Assembly: GCF_000244975.1 (NCBI RefSeq)
Contig: NZ_CM001440.1
Location: 2,526,325 to 2,590,324 of the forward strand
Source: Saccharomonospora cyanea NA-134
GTDB taxonomy: Bacteria; Actinomycetota; Actinomycetes; Mycobacteriales; Pseudonocardiaceae
DNA: 64,000 nt
Reading direction: 5' to 3'
The position numbers were made by a program, and so were the translations under genes. Numbering within the stretch: the stretch's first letter is position 1; every line of letters starts with the position of its first letter. The notes under the pieces were generated by a model that worked only from the letters and a program-made list of their open reading frames with translations, was not told where the DNA came from and searched no databases. This document shows positions 13,111 to 36,011 of the stretch, piece by piece.

Positions 13111-14088
13111 ATCTGGCTCAGTTTTCTTGGATGAAAGTTGTGCTTGTTGATCTTGCTGGTGGATCTCGATCGGTCGTTGCATGCCGAGTGCCTCGTGGGG
13201 GCGGATGTGGTTGAACACGTGCCGGTAGCGCTCGGCCTCGGCGGCGAGGGTCTGCCCGTCGTCGATCTCCATCCGGTAGAGGTGCTCGTACTTCAGCGAT
13301 CCGAATGCCCGTTCCCGCACGCCGTTCTGGCCGGGTGAGCGACGCCGAGTGCGGATGTGGAGCAGCTCGGGGCGAGAGGCGATGAACGCGGCGAACCTGC
13401 TGCCTTTGAAGGCGCCACCGTTGTCGGTGACCACCTTGATCCGCTTGATGTGCCCGGTCTCGGGGTTGGTGAGCTGCTCGGCCAACGGCACGCCACCGGC
13501 CAGCCGCTCGGCCTCGGCGATCGCGATCCGGACGGCGAGCTCGGCATCGGCGGCGTTGCAGGTGGTCGCGAGGTGCCAGCCGAACTCGTACTTCGAGTAG
13601 TAGTCCGCGCACCCGGCGATCCGCCAGATCCCACCACGGGTGGTCTCGAACTCAGAGAAATCCAGCTGCCACACCTGATTCGGCCCCGTAGGCGGCTCGG
13701 CGAACGCAGCCTTACGGGCCTTGGCTAGCTCTCGTCGTTCAGCCTGATATTTCGTGGACTGCAACAGATTCCGCCGCCGCATCGCCCGCTCCACGGTCGA
13801 AACGGACACCTCGTGTCCATCGGCGCGCATCAATGCGTGGATCTTGCGGTGTCCCCACGCCGGCCAGGCCTGGGCATACTTCTCCACGACCGGCTCGAAC
13901 GCCTCGACCGCCGGTGCCGGCCATGGGCCCTTCGGCGGGTTCCCGGCGCGCTGTTTGCTGATCCAGCGGGTATAGGTGCGGCGCGGGATGCCGATCAAGG
14001 CCGTGAACCTCGAGACCGGCATCGCCGCGTCTTGGCGAATCACCTCGAGGTCCTCGAAGGGGCCAGCCGCTCCGCGGAGCGCTTCCAC
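13105..14088 (-). CDS. IS3-family transposase, OrfB (rve integrase core)
   Basis: A DDE transposase of about 327 residues. An HTH_21-like region (A-W-P-A-W-G-H-R-K-I-H-A-L-M) precedes the rve core. The first Asp is in W-Q-L-D-F-S-E-F-E, the second in V-V-T-D-N-G-G-A-F and the Glu in G-V-R-E-R-A-F-G-S-L-K-Y-E. The 5' end overlaps orfA by 49 bases in another frame, so the active product is probably an OrfAB fusion made by programmed -1 frameshifting, as in other IS3 elements. Both frames look intact. Confidence 0.9.
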   Translation of the reverse strand: MEALRGAAGPFEDLEVIRQDAAMPVSRFTALIGIPRRTYTRWISKQRAGNPPKGPWPAPAVEAFEPVVEKYAQAWPAWGHRKIHALMRADGHEVSVSTVERAMRRRNLLQSTKYQAERRELAKARKAAFAEPPTGPNQVWQLDFSEFETTRGGIWRIAGCADYYSKYEFGWHLATTCNAADAELAVRIAIAEAERLAGGVPLAEQLTNPETGHIKRIKVVTDNGGAFKGSRFAAFIASRPELLHIRTRRRSPGQNGVRERAFGSLKYEHLYRMEIDDGQTLAAEAERYRHVFNHIRPHEALGMQRPIEIHQQDQQAQLSSKKTEPDS

Positions 14089-14402
14089 ACCCGCAGCTCG
14101 ACATGCGCCTCGCCCAGTGCCGTGGTCAACTCGTCGATCTGGGCCTGCAACTGCTCCTCACGACTCGAGGGACCGGCCTTACCGCCCTCGGCAACCCCGG
14201 CCCGGCCGCCCTCGAGGAACTGGGCCTTCCACCGCGACACCGACTGCTCCGAGACCTTGTTCCGCCGAGCGGCCTCGGCGATCGTCATCTCCCCGGACAG
14301 CACGCTCAGCACGATCCGGATCTTGTCCTCCACCGGGAACACCGGGGGACGGCTCATCGTCATACCTCCTGCTCAGGAACCTACATAACCCCTGAGCCAC
14401 AA
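13111..14402 (-). mobile_element. IS3-family insertion sequence
   Basis: A roughly 1.3-kb element with the two overlapping transposase frames of IS3 elements. The ends carry the inverted octamer TGGCTCAG (13114-13121; its complement at 14392-14399), with weaker similarity outside it. The exact tips and a target duplication could not be fixed. It interrupts the sigma-factor gene. Confidence 0.8.
14040..14363 (-). CDS. IS3-family transposase, OrfA (helix-turn-helix)
   Basis: A 107-residue protein. The HTH (I-A-E-A-A-R-R-N-K-V-S-E-Q-S-V-S-R-W-K) is followed by a leucine-zipper-like helix (L-Q-A-Q-I-D-E-L-T-T-A-L-G). It binds the IS ends and provides the N-terminal part of the OrfAB transposase. 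An AGGAGG-like site lies upstream of the ATG. Confidence 0.88.
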   Translation of the reverse strand: MTMSRPPVFPVEDKIRIVLSVLSGEMTIAEAARRNKVSEQSVSRWKAQFLEGGRAGVAEGGKAGPSSREEQLQAQIDELTTALGEAHVELRVWKRSAERLAPSRTSR

Positions 14403-15075: not shown

Positions 15076-16494
15076 TCACGGCAGCAGAGTGAGCGGGTGG
15101 CCGAGCGGGGCGAGGACGAGCCCCGCGAGCGGCCCGAGCGCCAGTGACACGGCGGCCGCGACCGCGGCGGCGCCGGCGGCTCCGTGGTTGGTCGGCAGCG
15201 TGAGGGGTTCGGGGCGCACGGCGGGCGCGATCCAGCGCAGGTAGTAGAACAGGCTCGCGACGGTGTTGGCGATGGCGACGGCCACGAGCCAACCGAACCC
15301 CGCGTCGAACGCGGCGGTGAACACGGTGAGCTTGCCGGCGAACACGCCGGTGGGTGGGGTGCCGACGAGCCCGAGCAGGCACACCACGAGGCTGATCGCC
15401 AACCAGGGGTGGCGCCGCACGAGCCCGCGATAGTCGGTCAGGGTCTCGGCGTTGGGCAGTGCCGCCACGACCGCGAACGCGCCCAGGTTCGTCACGGCGT
15501 AGGCGGTGAGGTAGAGCAGCAGGCTCGGCAACGCGAGGGTGGACGCGCCGGCGGCGGCGACCGCCATGAGCAGGTAGCCCACCTGGCTGATCGTCGAGTA
15601 CGCGAGCAGTCTGCGGACGTTGTCCTGGAAGAAGGCGGCGAGGTTGCCCAGCGTCATCGTGGCGGCCGCGACCACGGCCACGAGCAGCGGCCAGTTCAGC
15701 GCCGTCGGCGCGAGCACGGCCGCGACGAGGCGGTACACCGCCACCAGTGCACCGATCTTGGGAATCGTGGTGACGAGCGCCGACACCGGGGGACGGGCGC
15801 CCTGCGTGACGTCGGGTACCCAGAAGTGCACGGGTACCGCGCCCGCCTTGAACATCGGCCCGGCCAGCACCAGGACGGCACCGGCGGCGACGGCTGCGGC
15901 GGGTGTCGTGGGCAGGGTCTCAGCCAGTCGGGCGTAGCCGGTGGAGCCGCCGACGCCGAACACGGCCATCACCCCGAACAGCATCACCGTTCCGGCGAGT
16001 GCGCTCAGGAGGTAGTACTTCATGGTCGCCTCGGTGCCGGGGGAGTCCTTCGCGAACCCGGTGAGCGCGTAGAGGGGCACGCTCGCCAGCAGGAAGGCGG
16101 CGACGAGCAGCAGCAGGTCGTTCGCGCCGGCGAGCACGATGGTGCCGAGCGCGGACAGCAGCAGCAACACCACGAACTCGCTTTTCCGTGCGTGGCCACG
16201 GAACTCGCCCGAGATCGCCAGTACCAGCAGCACCGATACCAGCACCACGATGCGCACCACAGCCGTGGCCACATCGAGCGCGTAGGCGCCCTCGAACACC
16301 GTCGTGCCGCCGTTCGGCCAGCCCACCACGGTGGCGACGACACCGGCGACGCACACCACACCCGCCAACGCGTCCACGAGCCACTGGGAGCGCCGGGGCA
16401 GATACGAGCCCAGCAGCAGCCCGCACACGGCACCGCCGGTGAGGAACAACTCCGGCAGGATCAGACTCAGGTCGGCGAGCATCGTGCGGGGCAT
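15076..16494 (-). CDS. nuoN: NADH-quinone oxidoreductase subunit N-like (antiporter-type membrane subunit)
   Basis: A 472-residue protein with about 14 transmembrane helices of the Mrp-antiporter/complex I family. It has F-K-A-G-A-V-P-V-H-F-W-V-P-D-V, with the conserved lysine helix, and Y-S-T-I-S-Q-V-G-Y-L-L in the discontinuous helix region. It would form one proton channel of the membrane arm. It is the last gene of the operon, 1 base after nuoM. A decayed second copy of its C-terminal part lies at 25925-26300. Confidence 0.92.
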   Translation of the reverse strand: MPRTMLADLSLILPELFLTGGAVCGLLLGSYLPRRSQWLVDALAGVVCVAGVVATVVGWPNGGTTVFEGAYALDVATAVVRIVVLVSVLLVLAISGEFRGHARKSEFVVLLLLSALGTIVLAGANDLLLLVAAFLLASVPLYALTGFAKDSPGTEATMKYYLLSALAGTVMLFGVMAVFGVGGSTGYARLAETLPTTPAAAVAAGAVLVLAGPMFKAGAVPVHFWVPDVTQGARPPVSALVTTIPKIGALVAVYRLVAAVLAPTALNWPLLVAVVAAATMTLGNLAAFFQDNVRRLLAYSTISQVGYLLMAVAAAGASTLALPSLLLYLTAYAVTNLGAFAVVAALPNAETLTDYRGLVRRHPWLAISLVVCLLGLVGTPPTGVFAGKLTVFTAAFDAGFGWLVAVAIANTVASLFYYLRWIAPAVRPEPLTLPTNHGAAGAAAVAAAVSLALGPLAGLVLAPLGHPLTLLP

Positions 16495-16495
16495 G

Positions 16496-17995
16496 TCAGC
16501 GGCTCACCAGCGTTCCGACGACCCGGGCGGCGGGCTCGATCACGTCCAGCAGGAACCGGGGAAATACTCCGATGAGGACGGCCAGTGCCAGCAGCGGCAC
16601 GATGGCGGCCGCCTCGGCGCCCGCGAGGTCGGCCATGTCACCTTTACCGGTTGCACGCGCCGGTCCGAGGAAGACCCGCTGCAGGGCGCGCAGGAACAGG
16701 GCCGCGGTGACAAGGATGCCGACGACAGCCAGTGCCGTGGCGACCGGGACAGGGCCCAACGCGCCCGTGAAGATCTGGAACTCCGCGATGAACCCGGAGA
16801 ATCCGGGCAGTCCGAGGGATGCGAACGCGGCGACGGCGGTGACCCGGGCGAACCAGGGCGTGCGCGCCGCGAGGCCCCCGTAGGCGTCCATGTCGTAGGT
16901 GCGGCCGCGTTCGTAAAGTACCCCGGTGAGCAGGAACAGCGCTCCGGTGATGAGCCCGTGGCTCACCATCTGTGTGACGGCACCGGTCACCGCGAGGTCG
17001 TGTGCCTGCGCGTCCGACGTCGCGACGAGCCCGGCCGCCCCAAAAGCCAGCAGGATGTAGCCCATGTGGTTCACCGACGTGTAGGCGACCATCCGTTTGA
17101 GGTCGTTCTGTCCCAACGCGACGAACGCCCCGTACAGCACACCGGCTACACCGATGGCGACGATGGCCGGTGAGTAGTCGCGCCAGGTGCCCGGCAGGAT
17201 CGGCATTGCGATCCGCACGAACCCGTAGGTGCCGAGCTTCAGCAGCACCCCGGCGAGGATGGCCGAGCCCGCAGCGGGTGCCTCGGTGTGCGCGGGAGGC
17301 AGCCAGGTGTGAAACGGCACCGTCGGTGTCTTCACGGCCAGGCCCACCAGGATCGCCAGCAGCACCAGCACGCTGAAGATTCCTCCGCCCGCGAGCGGAT
17401 TTTGCGCGGTCAGGGCCACGATGTCGAAGGTGTGGGGGTCGGAGGCCACGTACAGGCCGATGAAGCCGAGTAGCAGCGCCAGCGAGCCGAGGAACGTGTA
17501 AAGGAAGAACATCAGTGCTGCGCGCGCCGCACCGCGGTGTCCCCAGAGCGCGATCACGAAGTACATGCCCACGATGGACAGGTCGAAGAAGACGAAGAAC
17601 AGGATGAGATCCAGGGAGACGAACACCCCTAGGCACACCGTCTGCAAGAACAAGAACAGCGCCGCGAATGCCCGCATCCGGTGGGTTTGGCGCAGCGAGT
17701 ACAGCGCGCAGGCGAGAAACAGTACCGCCGTGAGCGCCACCAGCGGCAGACTCAGCCCGTCGACCCCGATGTGGTATCCCGCACTCACGGTCGGAATCCA
17801 GCGCTGGTTCACCTCGTAGGCGAATCCGGATGGCCCCGGCGCGAACCCGATCCACAGCGCCACCACCAACGCGAGATCTGCCGCGGTGGTCGCGATCCAG
17901 ACCGAGCGCACCACCCTGTCACTCACCCGTGGCATGGCCACGAGCCCGGCCGCGACCGCGAGCGGCAGGAACACCACGACGCTGAGCACGTTCAC
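16496..17995 (-). CDS. nuoM: NADH-quinone oxidoreductase subunit M-like
   Basis: A 499-residue polytopic subunit with the family motif V-K-T-P-T-V-P-F-H-T-W-L-P-P-A-H-T-E-A-P and S-V-N-H-M-G-Y-I-L-L. The helix-5 glutamate and helix-7 lysine regions typical of proton-pumping subunits appear to be present. It lies between nuoL and nuoN in the order of canonical nuo operons and is likely translated from the same polycistronic message. Confidence 0.93.
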   Translation of the reverse strand: MNVLSVVVFLPLAVAAGLVAMPRVSDRVVRSVWIATTAADLALVVALWIGFAPGPSGFAYEVNQRWIPTVSAGYHIGVDGLSLPLVALTAVLFLACALYSLRQTHRMRAFAALFLFLQTVCLGVFVSLDLILFFVFFDLSIVGMYFVIALWGHRGAARAALMFFLYTFLGSLALLLGFIGLYVASDPHTFDIVALTAQNPLAGGGIFSVLVLLAILVGLAVKTPTVPFHTWLPPAHTEAPAAGSAILAGVLLKLGTYGFVRIAMPILPGTWRDYSPAIVAIGVAGVLYGAFVALGQNDLKRMVAYTSVNHMGYILLAFGAAGLVATSDAQAHDLAVTGAVTQMVSHGLITGALFLLTGVLYERGRTYDMDAYGGLAARTPWFARVTAVAAFASLGLPGFSGFIAEFQIFTGALGPVPVATALAVVGILVTAALFLRALQRVFLGPARATGKGDMADLAGAEAAAIVPLLALAVLIGVFPRFLLDVIEPAARVVGTLVSR

Positions 17996-18014
17996 CTCAC
18001 CTTCTCGACCCTGG

Positions 18015-19862
18015 TCACAACACGATCAGCAACACGACCAGCGCCGTGAGCAGGACGGCGATCTCGGCGTAGTACTGGTGGAGCTGCCCTGTCTGCGGAC
18101 GGCGCGCGAGGTGGCCGAGCCGCCGAACACCACCGGCGACTCCGCGCACGGCGCCGCCCACCACCGGTTCCCAGCGCAGCGTCGTCATGCGGGCCAGCCG
18201 CAACCCGAGCGCGGCCGTCCCGTGCACGGCACCGGCCACCACCTGGTCGTCGAATCGAGCGAGTACCTGCCCCGTTGCCACGGCGGGACGGGCGATCCGT
18301 TCGCGCGCGAATGCTTCCAGACCCAGCCAGCGCAGCAGCCCGTCCTGTTCCGGCACGTCACCACGGAGGCGGACCACGGCGACGGCGGCAGCGGCGGCGG
18401 CCAGCGCCACGGCGGCGGAGACGGCGGCCTCCCACCATTCCGGGGTGGCTTCCCGGCCGTGGGACACCAGCCTGGCGAACGCCGACCACACGTCGGGCAC
18501 CGCGAGCACGCCGAGCAGCGCGGCCCCGGACGCCAGTGGCGGCAGCACCACGCTCTGCGCCCGTCTGACGTGGCGCGTGCCTGGGTGCTCGGTGTCGAAC
18601 CGCGGTTCCGCCGTGGGCGGCGACCACACCAACGTCACTGCCCGCATCGCGTAGGCGGCACTCAGCGCGGCAGCGGCGAGACCGACGAGATACAGCGCCG
18701 GTGCGGACGGCACTGTGGCCGTGAGCACCTGGTCCTTCGTCGCCCACAACGACAATGGGGGCAGCCCGGCGAGCGTCACCGCGCCCACGGTGAACGTGGT
18801 TCCTACCACCGGGTAGCGCCGTGCCACGCCCGTCAGATCCGGCAGGTGCTTGGTGCCGAGTGCCATCAGCCACGCCCCGGCCGTCAGGAACAGCAAGCTC
18901 TTGGTGAGCGCATGTGCCACGAGCTGCGCGCTGCCAGCCGCCACGCCACCCGTTCCGGCTGCCAGCACCATGAAACCCACCTGCGAACACGTCGACGCGG
19001 CGAGCAACTGCTTGAGGTCGGTCTGCACCACCGCGACTGCACCCAGAGCCAGCGCCGTGACCGCGCCCAACCATGCGACGAGCGGGGACGCCCAGGGGGT
19101 GGCCGCGAGCAGTGGCTCCAGCCGCAGCAGCAGGTACGCCCCAGCCGCCACCATCGTGGCCGAATGCAGCAGCGCCGAGGTGGAACTGGGGCCGTCCATT
19201 GCGCGGGCCAGCCAGAAACTGAACGGCAGTTGTGCCGACTTCCCCGCCGCGGCAAGGATCACGCCCCCGGCCACGACGTCCCGCCAGCCGTCCGGCAGTC
19301 CTGCGAGCGCGTCTAGCGTGAGACCGCTCGCCCCACCCGCGAGCGCGGCGCCCGCCGCCACGTAGAGGCCGAGATCGGCCGCCCGGGTGACGAGGAACGC
19401 CACGGTGCCCGACGCGGCGCGCCGGCGCTGGCGCCAGTGGAACCCGATGAGCGCGTACGACATCGCGCTCATGACCTCCCACGCCATGAGCAGCGTGACG
19501 AGCGTGGTGGCCGTGACTGTCAGCAGCATCGCGCTCGCGAACACGAGCATCAGCCCGTGGTAGCGCGCCTGCGCCTCGCCCGCGCCGAACTCGCCCGCCG
19601 CGAACACGAGCACGGCGAGCGTCACCACCGCGACGGTCACCACGAGGACCGCCGAGAGCCCGTCCACCCGCAGCCCGAACGTGATGCCGCGCAGGTAGGG
19701 CACCGACATCGCCGGGCGGATGATCGCGACCGCGATCGACATCCCCAGCGTCACCACGGACGTCGCGATCGACACCACCGCAGCATGATGGTCGGCCCGA
19801 TGGCCGGCCACCAGCAGCGCGACGCCAACGACGAGTGGCAGCCCGAAGAGTGACCACAGCAT
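18015..19862 (-). CDS. nuoL: NADH-quinone oxidoreductase subunit L-like
   Basis: A 615-residue polytopic subunit. Core motifs are A-G-K-S-A-Q-L-P-F-S-F-W-L-A-R-A-M-D-G-P-S-S-T-S-A and A-A-S-T-C-S-Q-V-G-F-M. The C-terminal extension carries the long lateral helix expected of NuoL (region after about residue 480). It starts at ATG 19862, 5 bases after nuoK. It completes the set of three antiporter-type subunits L, M and N. Confidence 0.93.
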   Translation of the reverse strand: MLWSLFGLPLVVGVALLVAGHRADHHAAVVSIATSVVTLGMSIAVAIIRPAMSVPYLRGITFGLRVDGLSAVLVVTVAVVTLAVLVFAAGEFGAGEAQARYHGLMLVFASAMLLTVTATTLVTLLMAWEVMSAMSYALIGFHWRQRRRAASGTVAFLVTRAADLGLYVAAGAALAGGASGLTLDALAGLPDGWRDVVAGGVILAAAGKSAQLPFSFWLARAMDGPSSTSALLHSATMVAAGAYLLLRLEPLLAATPWASPLVAWLGAVTALALGAVAVVQTDLKQLLAASTCSQVGFMVLAAGTGGVAAGSAQLVAHALTKSLLFLTAGAWLMALGTKHLPDLTGVARRYPVVGTTFTVGAVTLAGLPPLSLWATKDQVLTATVPSAPALYLVGLAAAALSAAYAMRAVTLVWSPPTAEPRFDTEHPGTRHVRRAQSVVLPPLASGAALLGVLAVPDVWSAFARLVSHGREATPEWWEAAVSAAVALAAAAAAVAVVRLRGDVPEQDGLLRWLGLEAFARERIARPAVATGQVLARFDDQVVAGAVHGTAALGLRLARMTTLRWEPVVGGAVRGVAGGVRRLGHLARRPQTGQLHQYYAEIAVLLTALVVLLIVL

Positions 19863-19867
19863 GCCCG

Positions 19868-20173
19868 TCAGTCCTTCAGGTCGGCGGCCATGTCGGTCAT
19901 GTCCACGTCACGGGCCCGCAGCAGCGCCGTGGCCACGGCGAACCCGGCTGCCATCTCGATGGCCATCGCGGTCACCGCGACCGCCACGAGCACCTGGCCG
20001 TCCGGCCGGACCGGCGAGGTGAAGTACCAGAACCCGGCACCGCCGACGAGCACGCCGTTGATCATCAGTTCCAGGCCCATCATCACCATGACGATGGACT
20101 GCTGGGACAGCGCGCCGTACACCCCGACGCTGAACAGCGCCGCCGCCAGCAGCAGGTAGTCCTGCAGCGTCAT
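19868..20173 (-). CDS. nuoK: NADH-quinone oxidoreductase subunit K-like
   Basis: A 101-residue, three-helix subunit. The two buried glutamates that conduct protons in NuoK are present in V-M-M-G-L-E-L-M-I-N and M-A-I-E-M-A-A-G-F. The start codon overlaps the nuoJ stop (ATGA). Slightly methionine-rich, as in its neighbour NuoJ. Confidence 0.93.
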   Translation of the reverse strand: MTLQDYLLLAAALFSVGVYGALSQQSIVMVMMGLELMINGVLVGGAGFWYFTSPVRPDGQVLVAVAVTAMAIEMAAGFAVATALLRARDVDMTDMAADLKD

Positions 20174-20733
20174 CGGCCGACACCTCCCCGCACGGGGTCA
20201 CGCGGTCGAGTGCGGTCCAGCCGGTCGCCGAAGCGGTCGTAGCGTCCCCGGTGGGTCGACAGCACGACGGTGACAACTATCGCGGCGAACAACGCCAGCC
20301 CGAGCACCATCATCACGAGCATCTTCGAGCCCATGAGCGCCTCACCCAGCTGCCTCGTGGTGTCGGGCGGTGGTGAGGCCTGCGACGTGGGCCAGTCGAT
20401 GAGGTAGATGCCCACCACAAGCAAGGCGAACGTACCGACGGCGATCCCCAGTGAGCCCTTCGGGTTGTGCACCATGCTCATGGGCATCAACCCGGCCGGA
20501 TTCATCATGTACATCACCATGAAGACCACCATGATGAGCATTTCCATGATCATCATGAGGATGACGAGCACACCCAGATAGGTCAGGTGGACCAGCAGCA
20601 ACGCCAGTCCCGCGAACACGAACGACGCGAGCAGCGAGAACGTGGCCCTGGCCATGGAATCCACTCGGAACACCAGGATTCCGGTGATGACGGCACCGGC
20701 CGCGCACAGCCAGAACGCGATCTGTGTCCACAT
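20170..20733 (-). CDS. nuoJ: NADH-quinone oxidoreductase subunit J-like with Met-dense helix
   Basis: A 187-residue, five-helix subunit matching NuoJ in position and hydrophobic pattern (A-T-F-S-L-L-A-S-F-V-F-A-G-L-A-L-L, Y-L-G-V-L-V-I-L). The third helix and following loop are unusual: 12 methionines fall within residues 60-87 (M-M-I-M-E-M-L-I-M, F-M-V-M-Y-M-M, L-M-P-M-S-M), together with the conserved Glu. Canonical NuoJ has a Gly/Val/Leu helix there. Such Met clusters are typical of Cu(I)-handling membrane proteins, so a metal-related adaptation is possible but unproven. Confidence 0.88.
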   Translation of the reverse strand: MWTQIAFWLCAAGAVITGILVFRVDSMARATFSLLASFVFAGLALLLVHLTYLGVLVILMMIMEMLIMVVFMVMYMMNPAGLMPMSMVHNPKGSLGIAVGTFALLVVGIYLIDWPTSQASPPPDTTRQLGEALMGSKMLVMMVLGLALFAAIVVTVVLSTHRGRYDRFGDRLDRTRPRDPVRGGVGR

Positions 20734-20750
20734 CGGTCCACCTCCTCATG

Positions 20751-21695
20751 TCACGATGTGCGGGCCAGGACGACCACGGCCACGACCAGAGCCTGCAGCA
20801 GAGTGAGCGGTATCAGGACGATCCACGACAGTTCCTCGAACCGCTCCATGCGGATGGTGGGCAGCCGACGGCTCACCCACACCAGGACCGCGAGTACCGC
20901 CACGGTCTTCACAAGCGACCACAGCCAGCCGGGGAGTACCGGGCCGAGGCCGCCACCGAGGAACAGCGGCACGGACATCGCCGCGCCGGACACGAGCAGC
21001 AGCCAGCGACCGGCGCCGAACACCAGCCGGTCCGCGCCGGACATCTCGACGGCCGCCCCTCCGGCGATGTCACGGCCAAGTGGCGCGTCGAACGGCGGGA
21101 AGAACGCCATCATGAGCACTGAGATGAGGAACACGACGAACGCGACTGGCATCCAGACGGCGAACCACAGGTTCTGCTGTGCCGTCACGATGTCGCTCAC
21201 CCGGAGCGAACCGGCGCCGATCGCCGCGGTGGTGAGCACGAACATGTGCGGCAGTTCGTAGGCCAGTCCCTGCGCCAGGAACCGGTACCCGCCGATGAGC
21301 CCGTACGCGGAGTTGCCGCCCCAGCCCGCCAGCCACACCGCCGCCCAGGCGACGACTTCCATCGCGTTGAACCACACGATGCCGACGGCGCTGTCCCCGA
21401 CAGCCCAATTCCCCAGGGGCGTGACGAGAGACGCGAGCAGGGCCGCCGCGACCAGCGTGACGCCCGCGCCCCGCCACAGCAGTGTGTCAGCTGCCAGGGT
21501 GCGTCGTCGTTGCTGCACGAGCAGGCCCGCTGTCTCCCGCAGTGGCGAGGTGACGGTCGCACTGAACCGGGTCGTATCCGAGGTCCCGGCCGCGCGGGCG
21601 GCAAGGTGCGCGTCGAATGCGGCGGCCGCCAGCGCCAGCACACCCAGCACCACGGGCAGGAGGAACGCGCCGGGCCACCCGATCGCCTCAACCAT
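20751..21695 (-). CDS. nuoH: NADH-quinone oxidoreductase subunit H-like
   Basis: A 314-residue polytopic subunit with eight or so helices. The E-L-P-H-M-F-V-L motif, F-F-P-P-F-D-A-P-L-G-R-D-I-A-G-G and the acidic loop E-M-S-G-A-D-R-L-V are those of NuoH, which forms the quinone tunnel and links peripheral to membrane arm. The first helix region is longer and more divergent than usual. Its start overlaps the end of the BD-like gene by 8 bases. Confidence 0.88.
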   Translation of the reverse strand: MVEAIGWPGAFLLPVVLGVLALAAAAFDAHLAARAAGTSDTTRFSATVTSPLRETAGLLVQQRRRTLAADTLLWRGAGVTLVAAALLASLVTPLGNWAVGDSAVGIVWFNAMEVVAWAAVWLAGWGGNSAYGLIGGYRFLAQGLAYELPHMFVLTTAAIGAGSLRVSDIVTAQQNLWFAVWMPVAFVVFLISVLMMAFFPPFDAPLGRDIAGGAAVEMSGADRLVFGAGRWLLLVSGAAMSVPLFLGGGLGPVLPGWLWSLVKTVAVLAVLVWVSRRLPTIRMERFEELSWIVLIPLTLLQALVVAVVVLARTS

Positions 21696-22926
21696 GAGCG
21701 ACCTCGGCGGTCACGGTATCGAGGTCGGGATCGAGACTGGCCACCAGCAGCCGGGCCAGGGCGAACTCCGTCCCCGTGAGGAGGCCAGGCAGCGCGTCGA
21801 GCGTCCATCTGGCCTCACGCGCACGGTCGTCCTCATCGGACGGCGTAACGGTGCCGGTGAGTGCTCGCTCGGCGTCGTCGAGCCACTGGTGTAACCGGGC
21901 GAGCGTGTCGCCGCGTAGACCCGGCGGGGTCGAGGGCACATCAGGCGTGACGCCGACCCCCGTCAGGGACCAGCGCAGGACACGCGAGCGGCGGACGCGC
22001 CGCGCCCATGCCGAGAGCATCGGGGCTATGTTCTCCGGCCGCACCGACCAGCCGCCGGGCAGTATCTCGTCGCGAAACCGGCGGGCGGTGGCCGCGGCGT
22101 CGGCCCAGCCCGCGACCGACAGGAGGCGGGCGCACGAGTCGAGGCGCCGAGCGGCCATCAGGTAGGTGTCACCGGTCCAGAACGGATGGAGGTACGGGTC
22201 ACGCCCACAGCCCACGGTCTCGACGGTCGCGTCCTGGATGGTGTCACCCTGCAGGGTGCTGTGCACGACGAGCCCGGCGGGCCAGTTCGGCAGCACCGGG
22301 CCGAGCGGCAGATGCACCCGGTCGAGGGTGAGCCCGTCCCGGTCCTCGCCCCGATCGGCCATCGCGACGTTGCCGGGCATGTCCATGCCACCCATGTCGT
22401 GACCCATGTCGTGGTGCTGGTGACCGCCGTCGCCGTTCTCGTCTTTGTTCTGGCTCTCGTTCTCGTGCTGGTGCCCGGCGTGCTGGTGCCCGTTGTCGGC
22501 GCCGGCCTCGTTGTCCTCGTGCCCGCCGTCCTCGTGGCTCTCGTGATTCTGGTGTCCCTGCTGCTCATGGCCGATGTCATGACCCTCGGGCGGTGCGTCG
22601 TCGGCCTGGTGGCGCTGGAGACCGGTGTCCCGGAGGGTGGCGACCACTTCATTCACTGCGGACGGTGCGGCCGCCGCGGAGTCGATCTGTGCCCGCGCGC
22701 GTGGCCGAGGGAGCTGCGCCCACACCGCTTCCACATACGGCCCCAGGTCGTCGTCGAGCGGGCCCGCGATGAGCAGGAGATTCGCCTCGGCGGGACTCGC
22801 CGCCTCGTGCCAGCCGCGCTCACGCAGCACCCGTTCGACGGCGAGCCGGGCAGCGGTGCCGCCCGGTGTGGCCGTCACCAACGGCCGGGGCGGCGTGTGG
22901 CGCAACAACCACCCGGTCAGGCCCAT
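21688..22926 (-). CDS. Fused NuoB/NuoD-like protein with His/Met-rich linker
   Basis: A 412-residue protein in the place of nuoB-C-D. Residues 1-90 resemble NuoB (G-W-L-L-R-H-T-P-P-R-P, A-N-L-L-L-I-A-G-P, Y-V-E-A-V-W-A-Q-L-P-R-P) but lack its cluster N2 cysteines; the whole protein has only two Cys. Residues about 112-185 are a hydrophilic linker with 14 His between 116 and 176, plus M-D-M and D-M-G-G-M. Residues 190-412 are a degenerate NuoD/hydrogenase-large-subunit-like domain (A-R-R-L-D-S-C-A-R-L-L-S-V-A-G-W). It therefore cannot bind N2 and may bind metal ions instead. It overlaps nuoA by 10 bases and nuoH by 8. Confidence 0.75.
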   Translation of the reverse strand: MGLTGWLLRHTPPRPLVTATPGGTAARLAVERVLRERGWHEAASPAEANLLLIAGPLDDDLGPYVEAVWAQLPRPRARAQIDSAAAAPSAVNEVVATLRDTGLQRHQADDAPPEGHDIGHEQQGHQNHESHEDGGHEDNEAGADNGHQHAGHQHENESQNKDENGDGGHQHHDMGHDMGGMDMPGNVAMADRGEDRDGLTLDRVHLPLGPVLPNWPAGLVVHSTLQGDTIQDATVETVGCGRDPYLHPFWTGDTYLMAARRLDSCARLLSVAGWADAAATARRFRDEILPGGWSVRPENIAPMLSAWARRVRRSRVLRWSLTGVGVTPDVPSTPPGLRGDTLARLHQWLDDAERALTGTVTPSDEDDRAREARWTLDALPGLLTGTEFALARLLVASLDPDLDTVTAEVAHG

Positions 22927-23264
22927 CGCAGTGCCCCCTCACGCCACGCGTAGACGACACCCGCGAAAAGGATCGCGAGGAACACGAACATCTCCACGAC
23001 CGCCGACGTGCCCTTCTCCGCGACGACCAGCGTCCACGGGTACATGAACACCATCTCCATGTCGAAGATGAGGTAGATCATCGAGACGGTGTACCAACGG
23101 ACGTGGTACCGCGACACTGCATGCTCGGTAGGCGGGTGTCCGGAGAGGAACGGGTAGACGTCAGCCCTGGTGCCGCTCAGACGGGCGGCGAAAGCGATGC
23201 CGTAGAGACCGGCGACACCCACCAACGTCACAGCCAGCAAGACGAGCGCACCGGTGACGGTCAT
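22917..23264 (-). CDS. nuoA: NADH-quinone oxidoreductase subunit A-like
   Basis: A 115-residue, three-helix subunit, first gene of the operon. It has Y-L-I-F-D-M-E-M-V-F-M-Y-P-W, the acidic helix-2 motif of NuoA, and the preceding loop R-Y-H-V-R-W-Y in place of the usual conserved-cysteine F-x-x-R-F segment. An inverted repeat resembling a CsoR box lies 25 bases upstream. Confidence 0.9.
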   Translation of the reverse strand: MTVTGALVLLAVTLVGVAGLYGIAFAARLSGTRADVYPFLSGHPPTEHAVSRYHVRWYTVSMIYLIFDMEMVFMYPWTLVVAEKGTSAVVEMFVFLAILFAGVVYAWREGALRWA

Positions 23265-23288
23265 GCGCTACTCCCTCGGCCGACATGC

Positions 23289-23307
23289 AATACCAGGCAC
23301 GGGTATT
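23289..23307 (-). promoter_or_regulatory. CsoR-like inverted repeat upstream of nuoA
   Basis: AATACC (23289-23294), 7 bases, GGTATT (23302-23307): a perfect 6+6 inverted repeat centred 34 bases upstream of the nuoA start. It resembles the A-T-A-C-C-C...G-G-G-T-A-T core bound by copper-sensing CsoR repressors. No csoR gene is in the window. Confidence 0.45.
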
Positions 23308-23344
23308 CCCCGTCAGTGGCGGAAGTATTCACGATCCGTGTGTT

Positions 23345-23815
23345 ACCCGTGGCCGCTGCGCAACACCGCGGCCTCACTGTCGGCGAGCCGGAGGAGTCCG
23401 AGTCGGTCACCGGCTCTGGCGTGCATGCCACCGTGTCGGGGCGACCCAGCCTGCTGACCGACGCCAGGGCCGACCTGTCGGCAGTGGCGTCGGCACCGAC
23501 ATCGCCGTCGAACCGGCCGACATCGTGCTGCTGCACGACCAGGTCGGTGCCGTGCTGGATGCCCGCGACATCAGCGACCGCGCCTATCGGCACGCCCGCG
23601 GCAACATTGCCCTGGCGTTTCTGTTCAACGGCATCGGCGTCCCGCTCGCCACGACCGGCCTGGTGTACCCGGTCTGGGCGATGGTCGCCATGGCAGCCTC
23701 GGTCACCACTATCTTCGTCAACTCCGTGGGTACGCGCCCCTCCCTGCTTCTCCAGGCCATCGTCGGTGTCGGACGGCAGCGAATCGAGGACCCGAAGAAT
23801 GCAGTGCGGCAGTAA
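23345..23815 (+). pseudogene. Heavy-metal P-type ATPase remnant (internal deletion, frame change)
   Basis: Up to about 23470 one frame reads the nucleotide-binding domain (A-Q-H-R-G-L-T-V-G-E-P, V-T-G-S-G-V-H-A-T-V-S-G-R-P-S-L-L-T). From about 23485 another frame reads the C-terminal end of a P1B ATPase (G-V-G-T-D-I-A-V-E-P-A-D-I-V-L-L and the last two membrane helices, ending at 23815). The D-K-T-G-T domain, the G-D-G-x-N-D-A-P loop and everything upstream are missing. This is the decayed end of a copper-type exporter gene beside the nuo operon. It occupies most of the 23265-23912 gap. Confidence 0.7.
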
Positions 23816-23912
23816 CGCCGGCAGGCTGCCACCTGGTCTGAGACCGCTCGACGCCGGCCAGTTTGTGCGATGAGTAGCTTGGCATGACTACGCGGTTTGT
23901 GCTCCGTGTGTC

Positions 23913-24509
23913 CTACTGCCCCAGTAGTGCCGTCATCTCTTCGATCTCCTTGCTCTGCCGGTCGACGATGTCTTGGGCGTACATCGACGTCAGGGTGTCG
24001 CTGCCGTTGCGGAGTTGCGCTTGTGCGATGTCGACGGCGCCTTGGTGATGTTCGATCATGGTTTGCAGCCACAGCGTGTCGAATGCCGGGCCCGTGCTCT
24101 GCTGGAGTTGCTGGAATGTCTCCTCGGGCATGAGGTGAGAGTGGTCGTGTTCGCCGCTCGCGCCGCCCGGTGTGACTGTTTCGTCCCACAACTTCAGTTG
24201 TGCCAGCAGTCCGTTCTTTTCGGGGTTCTGAGTGTCCTTGATGCGCTGCGCGAGGTCTTTCACCTCGGGGCTGGCCGCGCGTTCCAGCGCGAGTTCGGCG
24301 ACCACGACGGCCTGTTCGTGGTGCGGGATCATGTCTTGGGCGAACTCGATGTCGCTGCGATTGTGATCGCTGTCGGCTACCGCCGTGGTGGGGGCTGTGC
24401 TCGGCGGGGCAGTCGAGGTGGTGGTGTCGGTCTCGCCTGTGCCACCGCATGCCGCGGTGAGGACGAGGAGCAGAGCCAGCGAGGGCAGGACACGATGTGT
24501 GCGCGGCAA
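23913..24509 (-). CDS. DUF305 lipoprotein 1
   Basis: A 198-residue lipoprotein: signal helix then lipobox L-T-A-A-C at about residue 21, a Thr/Ser/Pro-rich spacer, then two DUF305 halves with M-I-P-H-H-E-Q-A and M-I-E-H-H-Q-G-A. DUF305 proteins (for example CopM of Synechocystis) bind Cu(I)/Ag(I) through such His/Met motifs. It is therefore probably a cell-surface copper-binding protein. It is downstream of the paralogue at 24611, separated by a terminator-like hairpin. Confidence 0.88.
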   Translation of the reverse strand: MPRTHRVLPSLALLLVLTAACGGTGETDTTTSTAPPSTAPTTAVADSDHNRSDIEFAQDMIPHHEQAVVVAELALERAASPEVKDLAQRIKDTQNPEKNGLLAQLKLWDETVTPGGASGEHDHSHLMPEETFQQLQQSTGPAFDTLWLQTMIEHHQGAVDIAQAQLRNGSDTLTSMYAQDIVDRQSKEIEEMTALLGQ

Positions 24510-24544
24510 GGGAGGGTCCTTCGCGTCGGGATGTCGTCGTAAGA

Positions 24545-24587
24545 CCGGGCCTGCGGACTCACCCGGTAGGTGGGTTCGCAGGCCCGG
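24545..24587 (-). terminator. Hairpin between the two DUF305 genes
   Basis: Arms of 19 bases (24545-24563 and 24569-24587, 17 of 19 paired) with a 5-base loop, core CCGGGCCTGCG / CGCAGGCCCGG. It follows the stop of the upstream DUF305 gene and precedes the next, fitting an intrinsic terminator or attenuator. Confidence 0.7.
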
Positions 24588-24610
24588 AAGTGATGTGTTG
24601 TGGAACGCGC

Positions 24611-25216
24611 TCAGCCTTCCAGCAGTGATCGCATCTCGTTGATCTCTGCTTCCTGAGCGTCGATGATCTGCTGGGCGAGTTCCTTCACCTCGGGGTTGCT
24701 GCCCTCGTCCAGCACTGTTTCGGACATGTCAACGGCGCCCTGGTGGTGCTCGATCATCAACTCCAGGAACAGCCGGTCGAACTCGGCGCCGTTGGCCTGT
24801 TCGAGTTTCTTCATGTCCTCGGCACCCATTCCGGGCATCTCATGCCCCATGTCGCCGTGGTCCATCCCGGGCATGTCGTTGTTGACGCCCCAGGCGTCGA
24901 GCCAGCCGTTCAACTGGTCGATCTCGGGTCCCTGTGCTTGTTTGATGCGCTCGGCGAGATCGAGGATGTCGGGGTTGTCGGTGCGGCCCTCAGTGAGGTC
25001 GGCCATCTCGATGGCGCCCTCGTGGTGGGGGATCATTCCCTGGACGAAGGTCACGTCCGCCTGGTTGTGAGTGGCCTGTTCAGCTGACGCGCTTGTGCTG
25101 GGCTGGGAGCCGGCGTTATTGGCGGTGTCCGTGCCGTCGCTGCCTCCAGTGCATCCGGCGGCGAGCGCCGCGGCTACCGCGGTGACGAGGGCAGCGTAAG
25201 TCAAGGACTTCTTCAT
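24611..25216 (-). CDS. DUF305 lipoprotein 2
   Basis: A 201-residue lipoprotein with lipobox L-A-A-G-C near residue 22. The two DUF305 halves show M-I-P-H-H-E-G-A and M-I-E-H-H-Q-G-A, separated by a Met/His/Asp loop (D-M-P-G-M-D-H-G-D-M-G-H-E-M-P-G-M) that is richer in candidate Cu(I) ligands than in the neighbour. It lies 85 bases downstream of the DUF6153 gene and is likely transcribed with it. Confidence 0.9.
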   Translation of the reverse strand: MKKSLTYAALVTAVAAALAAGCTGGSDGTDTANNAGSQPSTSASAEQATHNQADVTFVQGMIPHHEGAIEMADLTEGRTDNPDILDLAERIKQAQGPEIDQLNGWLDAWGVNNDMPGMDHGDMGHEMPGMGAEDMKKLEQANGAEFDRLFLELMIEHHQGAVDMSETVLDEGSNPEVKELAQQIIDAQEAEINEMRSLLEG

Positions 25217-25300
25217 GGTGATTGTTTCCTCTGTGTAGGTAGGTCGATTGTGTTGCCGGGACGCCGCGCGAGCTCGATGAACTCGCCCGACGTGGTGACA

Positions 25301-25699
25301 TCACAGCCGCAGCACACAGAGGTCGTAGGCGAACCCGTCCGGGGTAGGTAGGGGGCTCGGGGGAGCACGCCCACCACCGGTCCGGTCGGCGAGGGGCCTG
25401 GGTCTGGTGACGGTGTCCCGGAATCGGCGGATGAGCCGGACGGTGATCAGCAGGACGATCGAGCCGACGAGCACGGCGAAGCACAGATGGGCCAGTACCG
25501 ATGAGCCTTCGTGCGAGGGTGCTGAGGAGTCATCGTGCCCGGCGGTGTCGTGCTCGGTGGTGACCTGCTGGACAGTGGCCGAGGGGTCGCCGTGCTCGAT
25601 GTGCTGGTTCACGACGTGGTGCATGATGACCAGCCCGAGCAACACGGAACAGACCAGCAACCAGCGCAGTATCGCGCCCCGGCGTCTGGGGTCGGTCAC
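25301..25699 (-). CDS. DUF6153 family membrane protein
   Basis: A 132-residue small membrane protein. Helix one (W-L-L-V-C-S-V-L-L-G-L-V-I) is followed by M-H-H-V-V-N-Q-H-I-E-H, a His/Asp/Ser external loop, helix two, and the typical C-terminal L-C-V-L-R-L. DUF6153 genes are often next to DUF305 genes, as here and again at 36086. A role in periplasmic metal binding is inferred from His content and context; no activity is established. Confidence 0.75.
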   Translation of the reverse strand: MTDPRRRGAILRWLLVCSVLLGLVIMHHVVNQHIEHGDPSATVQQVTTEHDTAGHDDSSAPSHEGSSVLAHLCFAVLVGSIVLLITVRLIRRFRDTVTRPRPLADRTGGGRAPPSPLPTPDGFAYDLCVLRL

Positions 25700-25924: not shown

Positions 25925-26300
25925 TCAGTCGGTGAGGAGGTTCCCGCGCAGCGCCGCGAGGAGGGGACCGGTGAGGAGCCCGACGCCGAGTGACGCGGTG
26001 GCGGCGAGGTAGGCGGTCGCGGTGTTGGTGTGTCGTGCTCCGGGCGCGTATGGCGGGGGAAATCCAGCAGAGGTAGTAGAAGAGGCTGGCGACAGTGTTC
26101 ACGGCGGCGAGCACGACCAAACATGTGAGGCCGGCGTCGAATGCGGCGGTGAACACTGTGAGCTTGCCGGCGAAGACACCCCTCGGTGTGGTGTGCCGAC
26201 CAGCCCGAGCAGACACACCACGAGCGTGAGCAACAACCAGGGATGGTGTCTGTGGAGGCCTGCGTAGTCGGCGAGGGCTCGGCCTGCGGAAACGCGCACA
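25925..26300 (-). pseudogene. Decayed nuoN fragment (C-terminal about 120 residues)
   Basis: Two minus-strand frames together reproduce the end of the NuoN encoded at 15076: L-A-D-Y-A-G-L-H-R-H-H-P-W-L-L-L-T-L-V-V-C-L-L-G-L-V-G-T-P (split by a frameshift near 26195), then G-V-F-A-G-K-L-T-V-F-T-A-A-F-D-A-G and N-T-V-A-S-L-F-Y-Y-L-C-W-I-S-P-A. The rest of nuoN and all other nuo genes are absent. It shows that a second nuo cluster, or a tandem duplication, once lay here. The remaining sequence to 26495 has no recognisable gene. Confidence 0.8.
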
Positions 26301-27521: not shown

Positions 27522-29471
27522 TTGCTTGCGCTGCCCGAAGTGCGATGGGCGGCTGCGGCGCTGGTGCTGTTCCTGGCCGGGCTGGCAGTCCAGCTGCTCG
27601 GTGGGCCGTCGTGGTTCTGGTGGGCGCTGTACCTGGCCTGCTATGTGACCGGCGGGTGGGAGCCGGCTCTGGCAGGGTTGAAAGCCCTCCGCGAGAAGAC
27701 GCTGGATGTGGACCTGTTGATGGTCGCCGCCGCGGTCGGGGCTGCCTCGATCGGACAGGGGATAGACGGCGGGCTACTGATCGTCATCTTCGCCACCTCG
27801 GGCGCGCTGGAGGCGCTGGCCACCGCGCGGACTGAAGACGCTGTGCGGGGGCTGCTGGGCTTGGCGCCGGACACCGCGACCCGGCTTACCGGCGACGGTG
27901 GCGAGGAGAGCGTGCAGGCCGCTGACCTGGAGGTCGAGGATCTGATTCTGGTCCGGCCGGGCGAGCGGATTGCCGCCGACGGTGCCGTGGTGGCCGGGGC
28001 GAGCGAGGTCGACCAGGCCACGATCACCGGGGAGCCGCTGCCGGTGGACAAGACCACCGGCGACGAAGTGTTCGCCGGCACCTTGAACGGCACGGGGTCG
28101 CTGAGAGTGCGGGTGAACCGGCGCGCCGAGGACTCCGTAGTGGCCCGGATCGCCACCATGGTGGAGCAGGCCAGCCAGACCAAGGCCAAGACCCAGCTGT
28201 TCATCGAGAAGATCGAGCAACGCTACTCGGTGGGCATGGTCGCGGCCACCATTGCCGTGTTCGTGATCCCGCTGTTGCTGGGCGAGGCACTGCAGGAGTC
28301 GCTGCTGCGGGCGATGACGTTCATGATCGTTGCCTCGCCCTGCGCCGTGGTACTGGCCACCATGCCGCCACTCCTGGCGGCCATCGCCAACGCCGGACGC
28401 CATGGTGTGCTGGTCAAGTCCGCAGTGGTGATGGAACAACTGGGCGCCGCCACGCGGGTCGCCTTCGACAAGACCGGCACGCTCACCCACGGCACTCCAG
28501 AACTCACCGAGATCTGCCCGCTGCGCGGTACCCGATTCACCGAAGAGCAGCTGCTGCGGCTGGCCGCCGCCGCTGAACATCCCAGCGAGCATCCGCTCGC
28601 TGCCGCGATCGTGCGTGCTGCGCGTCACCGTGGCCTTGATCTGCCCTCCGCCGACGAGTTTTCCGCCCGGCCCGGCCGGGGGGTCGCCGCTCTGATTGAG
28701 GACCACTTCATCCAGGTCGGCTCTCCCGCCGCGCTGCTCCCCACTATCGACGGCACGGCCGACACCGCGGCGGCCACCGCCGCCGTCGAGGAACTCCAGC
28801 AGCGCGGGCACACCGCCGTGGTCGTGCTCTGCGAGCGCCGCCCGATCGGCGTCCTCGGCATCACCGACCAGGTGCGGGCCGAAGCCGCCCCCACCGTCGC
28901 TGCAGTGACCCGGTTGACCGGCGCCGACCCCGTGCTGCTCACCGGCGACAATGCCGCCGCCGCCGTCCGGCTCGCGCAGCAGGTCGGTATCACCGACGTG
29001 CGCGCCGAGCTGCTGCCCGACGACAAGGTCACCGCCGTCCGCGAACTCGAAACGGATGAGCAGCGAGTGGCCGTGGTCGGTGATGGCATCAACGACGCTC
29101 CGGCCCTGGCCGCCGCGCACACCGGGATCGCGATGGGCGGAGCGGGCTCCGACCTAACCCTGCAGACCGCCGACGCCGTCGTGGTCCGCGACGACCTCAC
29201 CGCCATCCCCACCGTCATCGCCCTGTCCCGCCGCGCCCGCCGTGTCGTGATCGCCAACCTCATCATCGCCGCCACCTTCATCATCGGCCTCGTCCTCTGG
29301 GACCTCATCGGCACCCTTCCACTCGCGCTCGGCGTGGCCGGGCACAAAAGCTCCACCGTCATCGTCGGGCTCAACGGTCTGCGCCTGCTGCGCCGCGCCG
29401 CCTGGGGCCGCGCAAGCCAACCGGTGCAGTCGACCAATGCGGCTGGTAGCCGGTCGCGGAAGGCGGTGTAG
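27522..29471 (+). CDS. Heavy-metal P-type ATPase (P1B-4-like, altered HEGST motif)
   Basis: A 649-residue metal-exporting ATPase. Visible motifs are T-I-T-G-E-P-L-P-V (A domain), S-P-C-A-V (metal site in TM4), phosphorylation D-K-T-G-T-L-T, nucleotide-binding H-P-S-E-H-P-L, and G-D-G-I-N-D-A-P. The S-P-C motif, no N-terminal HMA domain and the last membrane segment L-G-V-A-G-H-K-S-S-T-V-I-V-G-L-N point to the P1B-4 (cobalt/zinc/iron) type, where the usual motif is H-E-G-S-T. Here Glu-Gly is replaced by Lys-Ser. The start is TTG 27522; no ATG or GTG is available upstream. Confidence 0.88.
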   Translation: MLALPEVRWAAAALVLFLAGLAVQLLGGPSWFWWALYLACYVTGGWEPALAGLKALREKTLDVDLLMVAAAVGAASIGQGIDGGLLIVIFATSGALEALATARTEDAVRGLLGLAPDTATRLTGDGGEESVQAADLEVEDLILVRPGERIAADGAVVAGASEVDQATITGEPLPVDKTTGDEVFAGTLNGTGSLRVRVNRRAEDSVVARIATMVEQASQTKAKTQLFIEKIEQRYSVGMVAATIAVFVIPLLLGEALQESLLRAMTFMIVASPCAVVLATMPPLLAAIANAGRHGVLVKSAVVMEQLGAATRVAFDKTGTLTHGTPELTEICPLRGTRFTEEQLLRLAAAAEHPSEHPLAAAIVRAARHRGLDLPSADEFSARPGRGVAALIEDHFIQVGSPAALLPTIDGTADTAAATAAVEELQQRGHTAVVVLCERRPIGVLGITDQVRAEAAPTVAAVTRLTGADPVLLTGDNAAAAVRLAQQVGITDVRAELLPDDKVTAVRELETDEQRVAVVGDGINDAPALAAAHTGIAMGGAGSDLTLQTADAVVVRDDLTAIPTVIALSRRARRVVIANLIIAATFIIGLVLWDLIGTLPLALGVAGHKSSTVIVGLNGLRLLRRAAWGRASQPVQSTNAAGSRSRKAV

Positions 29472-35435: not shown

Positions 35436-36011
35436 TCAGTGAGGGAGAAATCCCACCATCTCGCGGATTTCAGCCTCTTGCGTCTCGATGATGCGCTGGG
35501 CGAGTGCCTTGGCGTCGGCGTCGCTGCCTTCCTCCAGCTCTGTCTTGGCCATCTCGATCGCGTCCTGATGATGCTGGACCATCATTTGCAGCCACATGAC
35601 GTCGAACTCGGAGCCGGTCGCCTGTTCCAGTTGCCGCATCTCCTCGCCGCTCATCATCCCCGTCATATCGGACTTATCGCGCGCTGCAGACACGCCCCAC
35701 TTCTTCAGTAACCCGGTCATCTGCTGGATCTCGGGATCCTGCGCGCCTGTGGTCCGCTCAGCGAGACTTTTCACATTCGGGTTGGTGGAGCGTTCCAGCG
35801 CCAGGTCTGCCATCTCGCCCGCCTGCTCGTGGTGCGGGATCATCTGCTGGGCGAAAGCAATGTCGCTGTCGTTGTGACTGCTCTGCTGGGCCTCGCCGGC
35901 CGCAGTCGGTGGCGTGTTCTGGTTCGAGTCCCCGGCGGACGTGTCGCCGGTGCCGCAGGCTGTGAGGGCGAGGAGGGCGGCCGCGCTCGCCCCGATGAGG
36001 TATTTCTTCAT
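35436..36011 (-). CDS. DUF305 lipoprotein 3
   Basis: A 191-residue lipoprotein with lipobox L-T-A-C near residue 19. It has M-I-P-H-H-E-Q-A in the first half and M-V-Q-H-H-Q-D-A in the second, with a Met-containing loop (D-M-T-G-M-M) between. It is the third DUF305 paralogue in the window and again lies downstream of a DUF6153 gene, repeating the arrangement at 24611-25699. Probably a surface Cu(I)-binding protein. Confidence 0.9.
   Translation of the reverse strand: MKKYLIGASAAALLALTACGTGDTSAGDSNQNTPPTAAGEAQQSSHNDSDIAFAQQMIPHHEQAGEMADLALERSTNPNVKSLAERTTGAQDPEIQQMTGLLKKWGVSAARDKSDMTGMMSGEEMRQLEQATGSEFDVMWLQMMVQHHQDAIEMAKTELEEGSDADAKALAQRIIETQEAEIREMVGFLPH

Follow-up and report, generated by a model that had tools for sequence, protein, structure and literature searches.

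The 64,000-nucleotide stretch of Saccharomonospora cyanea NA-134 DNA analysed here (contig NZ_CM001440.1, positions 2,526,325 to 2,590,324), referred to below as the window, carries an operon that resembles the membrane arm of respiratory complex I and that appears to be linked to copper. The operon, nuoA-BD-H-J-K-L-M-N, consists of eight closely spaced genes on the minus strand (window positions 23264-15076). Pfam/NCBIfam profile searches gave Pfam matches for all seven complex I membrane subunits, A, H, J, K, L, M and N, where the initial annotation of this DNA had placed them. The eighth gene product, here termed BD, is a NuoB/NuoD-like fusion. The genes are, in order of transcription:

22917..23264, minus strand: nuoA-like subunit (PF00507, E 9e-27); the Glu of the FD.E motif is retained between Met residues (FDMEMVFMYPW), and M69-E70-M71, M74 and M92 are conserved.
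21688..22926, minus strand: BD, NuoB/NuoD-like fusion; matches no Pfam family and was assigned by profile-profile and fold comparison.
20751..21695, minus strand: nuoH-like subunit (PF00146, E 7e-45); in alignment with the genome's own canonical NuoH, the RPGPNRVGP stretch is lost.
20170..20733, minus strand: nuoJ-like subunit (PF00499, E 2e-11), with a Met array on the third transmembrane helix (TM3) and the following loop (residues 60-87).
19868..20173, minus strand: nuoK-like subunit (PF00420); Glu retained with Met close by, and M29, M31, M32, E35, M70 and M74 conserved at 95% or more.
18015..19862, minus strand: nuoL-like antiporter subunit (PF00361); channel Lys/Glu retained, with E129, K208, K321 and K376 conserved.
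16496..17995, minus strand: nuoM-like antiporter subunit (PF00361; TIGR01972 above cut-off); D138, K222, K253 and E405 conserved.
15076..16494, minus strand: nuoN-like antiporter subunit (PF00361); one canonical Glu (E174 of the genome's own NuoN) is replaced by Leu135 in 51/51 sequences.

When the 64 kb were searched by tblastn with the genome's own subunits, no convincing relatives of NuoC, NuoE, NuoF, NuoG or NuoI were found (best E 0.035), in agreement with their reported absence. A canonical complex I cluster is present elsewhere in the same genome, from G000:C1:374291 onward (its nuoN was seen in part), and NADH oxidation therefore need not depend on the window operon. Just downstream of nuoN, at 14040-14363 on the minus strand, there is a transposase-type helix-turn-helix protein whose best NCBIfam match, IS3, is below cut-off. 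A protein of this type next to nuoN is consistent with a mobile island.

The BD protein has a degenerate NuoB-like domain (residues ~1-110), a disordered linker rich in His and Met (~111-190) and a reduced NuoD-like domain (~190-410). In hhalign comparisons, NuoB of the same genome matches BD residues 41-78 (E 1e-5, probability 82); the match with the genome's own NuoD is weak and involves the C-terminus alone (probability 1, E 0.05). An AlphaFold2 model made from 77 sequences, a single chain like our other structure models, has a predicted local distance difference test score (pLDDT) of 85 and a predicted template modelling score (pTM) of 0.83, with a low-confidence stretch at about residues 111-190. 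In a fold search the best 50 of 388 solved-structure matches (up to E 10) are complex I or NDH chains plus one MBS chain. These are partial matches, with E 5.5e-4 at best, probability 1.00 and template modelling scores (TM-scores) of 0.27-0.40. The lengths of the matched chains fit what we take to be NuoD, NuoCD or the 49-kDa subunit. On the strength of this partial fold match, the C-terminal part of BD is provisionally assigned to NuoD. Short matches to the BD profile, at positions ~45-91 in many genomes, were taken as canonical NuoB.

The initial annotation described BD as a fused, Cys-poor protein with a 14-His linker, and this description stands: 14 His are found in residues 111-183, and the protein has two Cys (C240, C265). 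There is no Cys among the invariant or near-invariant BD columns in the 77 sequences, and cluster N2 should therefore be absent. The His of the NuoD motif GPQHPSTHG has a functional role in complex I. The BD counterpart of this motif, aligned by eye, reads LGPvLPxWPAGL, and the canonical His is not kept. Compared with respiratory complex I (NDH-1), the operon has the same order of A, H, J, K, L, M and N, NuoB- and NuoD-like domains and most of the channel Lys/Glu residues, but it differs in having no N module, no NuoC or NuoI and no conserved BD Cys, in the fusion of B and D through a His/Met linker, and in the Met array of NuoJ.

Of 200 sampled genomes of the host family, 53 have a BD match, two of which are weak (G116 and G129) and were left out. 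Fifty-five family loci (L033-L087) were fetched and their genes called with a custom script; 49 of the 55 have all eight genes in the same order on one strand, and nuoJ is absent from four of 56 loci when the window is included. Partial copies of the operon are found at L050, L078, L086 and L087 in genomes and at L314 on a plasmid, a sign of gain and loss. A DNA pattern for the NuoJ Met array detected at least 120 stretches in Actinomycetota, Rhodobacterales, Halomonadaceae, sphingomonads, Chloroflexi metagenome-assembled genomes (MAGs) and others. A BD pattern search of genome contigs yielded 48 pattern-matching stretches, none of which was confirmed. Operon relatives are present in Actinomycetota, Alpha- and Gammaproteobacteria, Chloroflexota MAGs and 20 plasmid records (18 found by NuoJ and 15 by BD); 17 of the plasmid regions were viewed, and three Mycobacterium avium records were left out. 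An additional sample chosen by BD consists of 20 loci, nine from close relatives and 11 from a distant actinobacterial family (f19, loci L328-L338), with G369, G308, G240, G489 and G275 left out. The BD sequences of the f19 loci are much diverged and are found in long open frames, their best stretches being 24-33% identical, and these loci have the same Met array.

The array itself is the most uniform property of the family. The window NuoJ has 12 Met in 28 residues (60-87), as initially annotated, and the best 28-residue stretch of NuoJ holds 10-12 Met in all 52 family loci having nuoJ. In the sample selected through BD, regardless of Met content, nuoJ is present in 19 of the 20 loci, and each of these 19 shows 9-12 Met per 28 residues. 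Loci found with the Met pattern were selected by Met, and only columns outside the pattern are informative there; M27, M60, M85, M87, H89 and M138 are invariant outside it in 42 NuoJ sequences. The Met residues are on TM3 (helix 51-77 in the model, with pLDDT 80 overall and 56-66 at residues 71-90) and on the loop after TM3. In complex I, TM3 of NuoJ/ND6 bears a pi-bulge which opens and closes the E-channel, as described in an excerpt of PMC10212512. The conserved M61 aligns with Tyr Y90 of the genome's own canonical NuoJ at ~30% identity, the level at which residues were mapped to canonical subunits in general, and Y90 may be the counterpart of the gating Tyr.

Met enrichment also extends to subunits that surround the E-channel. 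With the genome's own complex I as the single canonical reference (NuoN in part), we count 22 conserved Met positions (at least 95%) in A, H, J and K that are non-Met there, vs 3 in L, M and N (Fisher 5e-9). Several conserved Met of A, H and K are four or fewer residues from a retained Glu. The median Met content of the relatives relative to the genome's own canonical subunits is 10.2 vs 3.0% in J, 8.9 vs 6.1% in K and 5.2 vs 3.6% in A; H hardly differs, and L and M contain less Met than their canonical counterparts. No majority-Cys column is present in A, H, J or K.

Copper-type genes were searched for in ~19 kb of flank per locus, with proteins from three annotated plasmids, one Roseivivax and the window DUF305 as queries; with the partial loci L078, L086 and L087 left out, 53 loci were counted. 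At least one copper-type gene is near 35 of the 53. Among 40 control regions of 20 kb, drawn at random from these genomes, two were positive (p 4e-10), in both cases through P-type ATPases only. Without the window, the source of the DUF305 query, the count is 34/52; by genus it is 15/20. CsoR is near 19/53 loci; the genomes' own CsoR-family counts predict 0.41 if a single 20-kb region is drawn at random from each of 50 genomes. A multicopper oxidase is near 11/53 loci, and copA ends directly at nuoA in L081-L085. All 11 f19 loci have a copper-type gene, nine of them CsoR, although the random control covers host-family genomes only. Together with the Met array, these counts bear out the earlier suggestion that the complex-I-like module is tied to copper.

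Copper-type genes are also annotated in 12 of the 17 plasmid regions viewed. They comprise CueR and a P-type ATPase in Roseivivax and Acuticoccus, a multicopper oxidase and CopB in Halomonas, CsoR, a heavy-metal-associated (HMA) protein and a P-type ATPase in Curtobacterium and Pseudonocardia, and DUF305 with a multicopper oxidase in Arthrobacter FB24; one further plasmid region has DUF305 only. The operon often has regulators of copper excess, and exporters, as its neighbours; these regulators are CsoR in Actinomycetota and CueR in the two Alphaproteobacteria viewed. A BlaI/CopY-type regulator and an M56 metallopeptidase are found near the operon in L308, L309 and L316 (Pseudonocardia and Rhodococcus plasmids).

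In the window, the region upstream of nuoA contains the following features:

23291..23305, minus strand: TACCCGTGCCTGGTA, a degenerate operator of the CsoR type that lies 41 bp ahead of nuoA; no other TACC-N7-GGTA occurs in the 64-kb window.
23477..23737, plus strand: C-terminal remnant of a P1B-type ATPase for copper or another heavy metal (tblastn E 6e-9 to 3e-10).
23913..24509, minus strand: DUF305/CopM-family lipoprotein (PF03713, E 1e-39; NF049983 CopM, 93.3 bits, cut-off 90).
24611..25216, minus strand: DUF305/CopM-family lipoprotein (PF03713, E 3e-53; NF049983, 131.7 bits).
25301..25699, minus strand: DUF6153 protein (PF19650, E 8e-9).
26046..26281, minus strand: remnant of a second nuoN copy (tblastn, 69-76% identity over residues 350-427 of the intact NuoN).

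The DUF305 lipoproteins and the DUF6153 protein had been recognized in the initial annotation, and the profile matches agree with it. A third DUF305/CopM-type protein is at 35445-35957 (minus strand). The nuoN-DUF6153-DUF305 order of the remnant region is repeated in two Pseudonocardia plasmids, and therefore, to judge from gene order, a second copy of the island has most likely decayed upstream of nuoA, with its end still present in the window. The operator site of the window is shared by L033 and L034, and fuller boxes are present in other relatives. A TACC-N7-GGTA box is found no more than 330 bp before nuoA in 18/51 family loci, where 0.04 would be expected on the basis of an 800 kb control. 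In L066, L067, L069 and L077 the box has exactly the sequence given for the copZA operator core in an excerpt of PMC3902906. In some loci the box may serve a divergent csoR.

The linker of BD is variable. It ranges from 44 to 208 residues with 0-47 His in 52 sequences (L063 was left out in addition to L078, L086 and L087); L054, L076 and L079 have no His, and L040 has 47. By blast classification, the median number of linker His is 10.5 in 34 loci with any copper gene vs 4.5 in 18 without (p 0.07), and 5 in 19 loci with CsoR near vs 11 in 33 without (p 0.11). A coarse motif classifier gives medians of 5.5 (22 loci with copper genes) vs 11.5 (30 without), which is opposite to the blast classification. 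In three proteobacterial loci (L262, L263 and L266) there is a His-rich tail at the C-terminus of NuoJ instead of the BD linker. The His-rich linker or tail can be read as an optional metal collector.

The gene order is already in print, where excerpts of three papers present it as a partial nuo operon or as 'marine adaptation genes' and account for it through osmotic stress and the pumping of sodium or protons (PMC3314556, PMC6676996, PMC6002675). The 'NDH-1 partial 2' of Salinispora, Streptomyces SM17/SM18 and Kocuria flava has the same order, nuoA-hypothetical-H-J-K-L-M-N, and is likened to the window operon by order alone; the difference is that the excerpt reads it as salinity adaptation (PMC6676996). 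The nuo genes of a Streptomyces from copper-rich mine fluids are likewise explained there as osmotic (PMC6676996). The initial annotation knew of no described metal link, and in this respect it needs correction: the excerpt of Eddie et al. (2021; PMC8233155) notes a NuoADHJKL cassette inside a Marinobacter copper operon, co-expressed with it, and suggests copper redox as the energy source. The Marinobacter atlanticus cassette is thus similar in being complex-I-like and among copper resistance genes, but as described there it differs in that it is from one strain and is said to be without nuoM and nuoN (PMC8233155). The literature searched, in which few subscription journals are covered, brought up neither the NuoJ Met array nor a family-wide copper link.

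Two other known systems are pertinent. The Mrp cation/proton antiporters are also non-redox complexes with antiporter-like subunits, but the window operon keeps relatives of NuoH, NuoA, NuoB and NuoD, and we know of none of these in the mrpA-G operon. The CopA and CsoR-CopZ efflux systems share their neighbourhood and operator type with many of the loci. However, the nuo-like complex has no ATPase domain and is a multi-subunit ion-channel complex.

The redox parts have been lost, most ion-channel residues are kept, Met residues surround the E-channel and the neighbouring genes are of the copper-excess type. This combination is best fitted by membrane handling of Cu(I), most likely ion-gradient-driven efflux. 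We propose, with a probability of roughly 0.45, that the operon encodes a copper-dedicated, non-redox, ion-driven Cu(I) export complex related to the complex I membrane arm. The parts of this proposal are not equally firm. Dedication to copper is very probable, and a non-redox complex is highly likely as well; that Cu(I) is actually translocated has somewhat less than an even chance. In other words, the copper link is strong, and the transport step is one that we infer. A slightly more tentative suggestion is that the membrane arm has become a Cu(I) pump powered by the ion gradient. Copper would travel through the E-channel of NuoA/H/J/K, lined by Met around its Glu residues, and would be loaded on the cytosolic side at the former NuoB/NuoD cap and the metal-rich tail that this carries.

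In such a pump, CopZ-like chaperones or the His/Met-rich tails of BD or NuoJ would hand over Cu(I), which would enter at the side of the old quinone chamber (BD/NuoH) and be bound and passed along the Met-lined E-channel. Ion flow through L, M and N, i.e. complex I in reverse, would drive the NuoJ TM3 gate. The net result would be efflux of Cu(I) alongside CopA, the DUF305 proteins and multicopper oxidase.

It should be pointed out that several observations weigh against Cu(I) export. NuoN is without one canonical Glu and has an FKxGaVP motif whose Lys shows no more than 60-90% conservation, which makes full pumping doubtful. The Met residues could gate rather than conduct. The His linker has no clear relation to copper neighbours, as the direction depends on the count used. 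The CsoR-like repeat of the initial annotation is indeed present before nuoA, but TACCCGTGCCTGGTA keeps TAC-X9-GTA without the G-tract of the operators quoted in the excerpt of PMC3902906; furthermore, the box is found in only 9/74 named loci (all groups) with enough upstream sequence. Similarly, the P-type ATPase remnant is where it had been predicted, yet its metal is uncertain, as the copper and general heavy-metal profiles are tied on 23525-23815 (TIGR01511, 30.6 bits vs TIGR01525, 30.5 bits, both far below cut-off). The window does have an intact heavy-metal P-type ATPase, at 27540-29471 on the plus strand with an SPC instead of a CPC motif. It is assigned to the Cd/Zn family, which rules it out as a CopA.

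Copper-type genes are also missing near a part of the relatives: 18/53 family loci, 5/17 plasmid regions (L311-L313, L316 and L317) and six of the nine BD-chosen loci outside f19 (three have one, and two of the nine are on short contigs). The initial annotation had counted homologous operons without copper neighbours and without His/Met enrichment as evidence against its reading. Operons of the former kind thus exist, but loss of Met was not seen, as 17/17 nuoJ-bearing loci among the 18 without copper genes keep 10-12 Met. In addition, the loci are not independent by descent, and this shared ancestry means that the p-values overstate significance. Finally, many of the hosts are presumably halophilic or marine, so that salt could be the common factor.

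This raises the question of whether the operon encodes an ion pump for salt or pH whose expression copper merely increases, in response to the damage that copper stress does to the ion gradient. The host genera fit such a pump, as do the retained Lys/Glu residues of the antiporter subunits, most of which are in place, and the excerpts that present the operon as marine adaptation genes (PMC3314556, PMC6676996, PMC6002675). But the Met enrichment of A, H, J and K would be left unexplained, as would the copper-type genes that flank the operon on plasmids from hosts of soil, sediment and clinical origin, and we consider this explanation unlikely. A copper-gated or copper-protected proton channel or sensor, in which Cu(I) bound by the Met array of NuoJ controls the E-channel, locking or opening it, without being transported, would account for an array on a known gate helix. 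It is rather improbable, since conserved Met are also present in A, H, K and the loop after TM3, beyond the needs of a gate.

The initial annotation had considered copper redox as the energy source, and the present analysis gives no positive evidence for this. In a pump of that kind, also suggested in the excerpt of Eddie et al. (2021; PMC8233155), oxidation of Cu(I) or reduction of Cu(II) at the old quinone site would replace NADH. Although the metal-rich linker between the B- and D-like domains and the higher expression alongside copper genes in Marinobacter (PMC8233155) could be seen in this light, the operon has no redox partner subunit, Cys is found neither as a majority column in A/H/J/K nor among the near-invariant BD columns, and some members are without a His-rich linker; there is thus little likelihood of a copper-redox pump. 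The multicopper oxidases near 11/53 family loci might instead point to copper import, or to delivery to these and other cuproenzymes. CsoR, CueR and CopA, however, are regulators and neighbours of the copper-excess type, which makes import or delivery quite improbable. That the operon is a decaying, functionless leftover of complex I is the least credible explanation of all. The nuoN remnant in the window and the partial loci L050, L078, L086 and L087 speak for it, but the eight genes stand complete and in order on one strand in 49/55 family loci, and the Met array is strictly conserved across phyla.

If ion-driven Cu(I) export by this complex is confirmed, it would represent a further way of powering copper export, besides P-type ATPases and resistance-nodulation-division (RND) pumps, and a new mechanistic class of metal exporter that is found across phyla and on plasmids. 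The published 'marine adaptation' operon would then need a new reading. The complex would also be a natural variant of complex I in which the debated NuoJ TM3 gate has been rebuilt with metal-binding residues and there is no electron flow, which would make it possible to study, free of redox chemistry, how the E-channel is coupled to the antiporter subunits.

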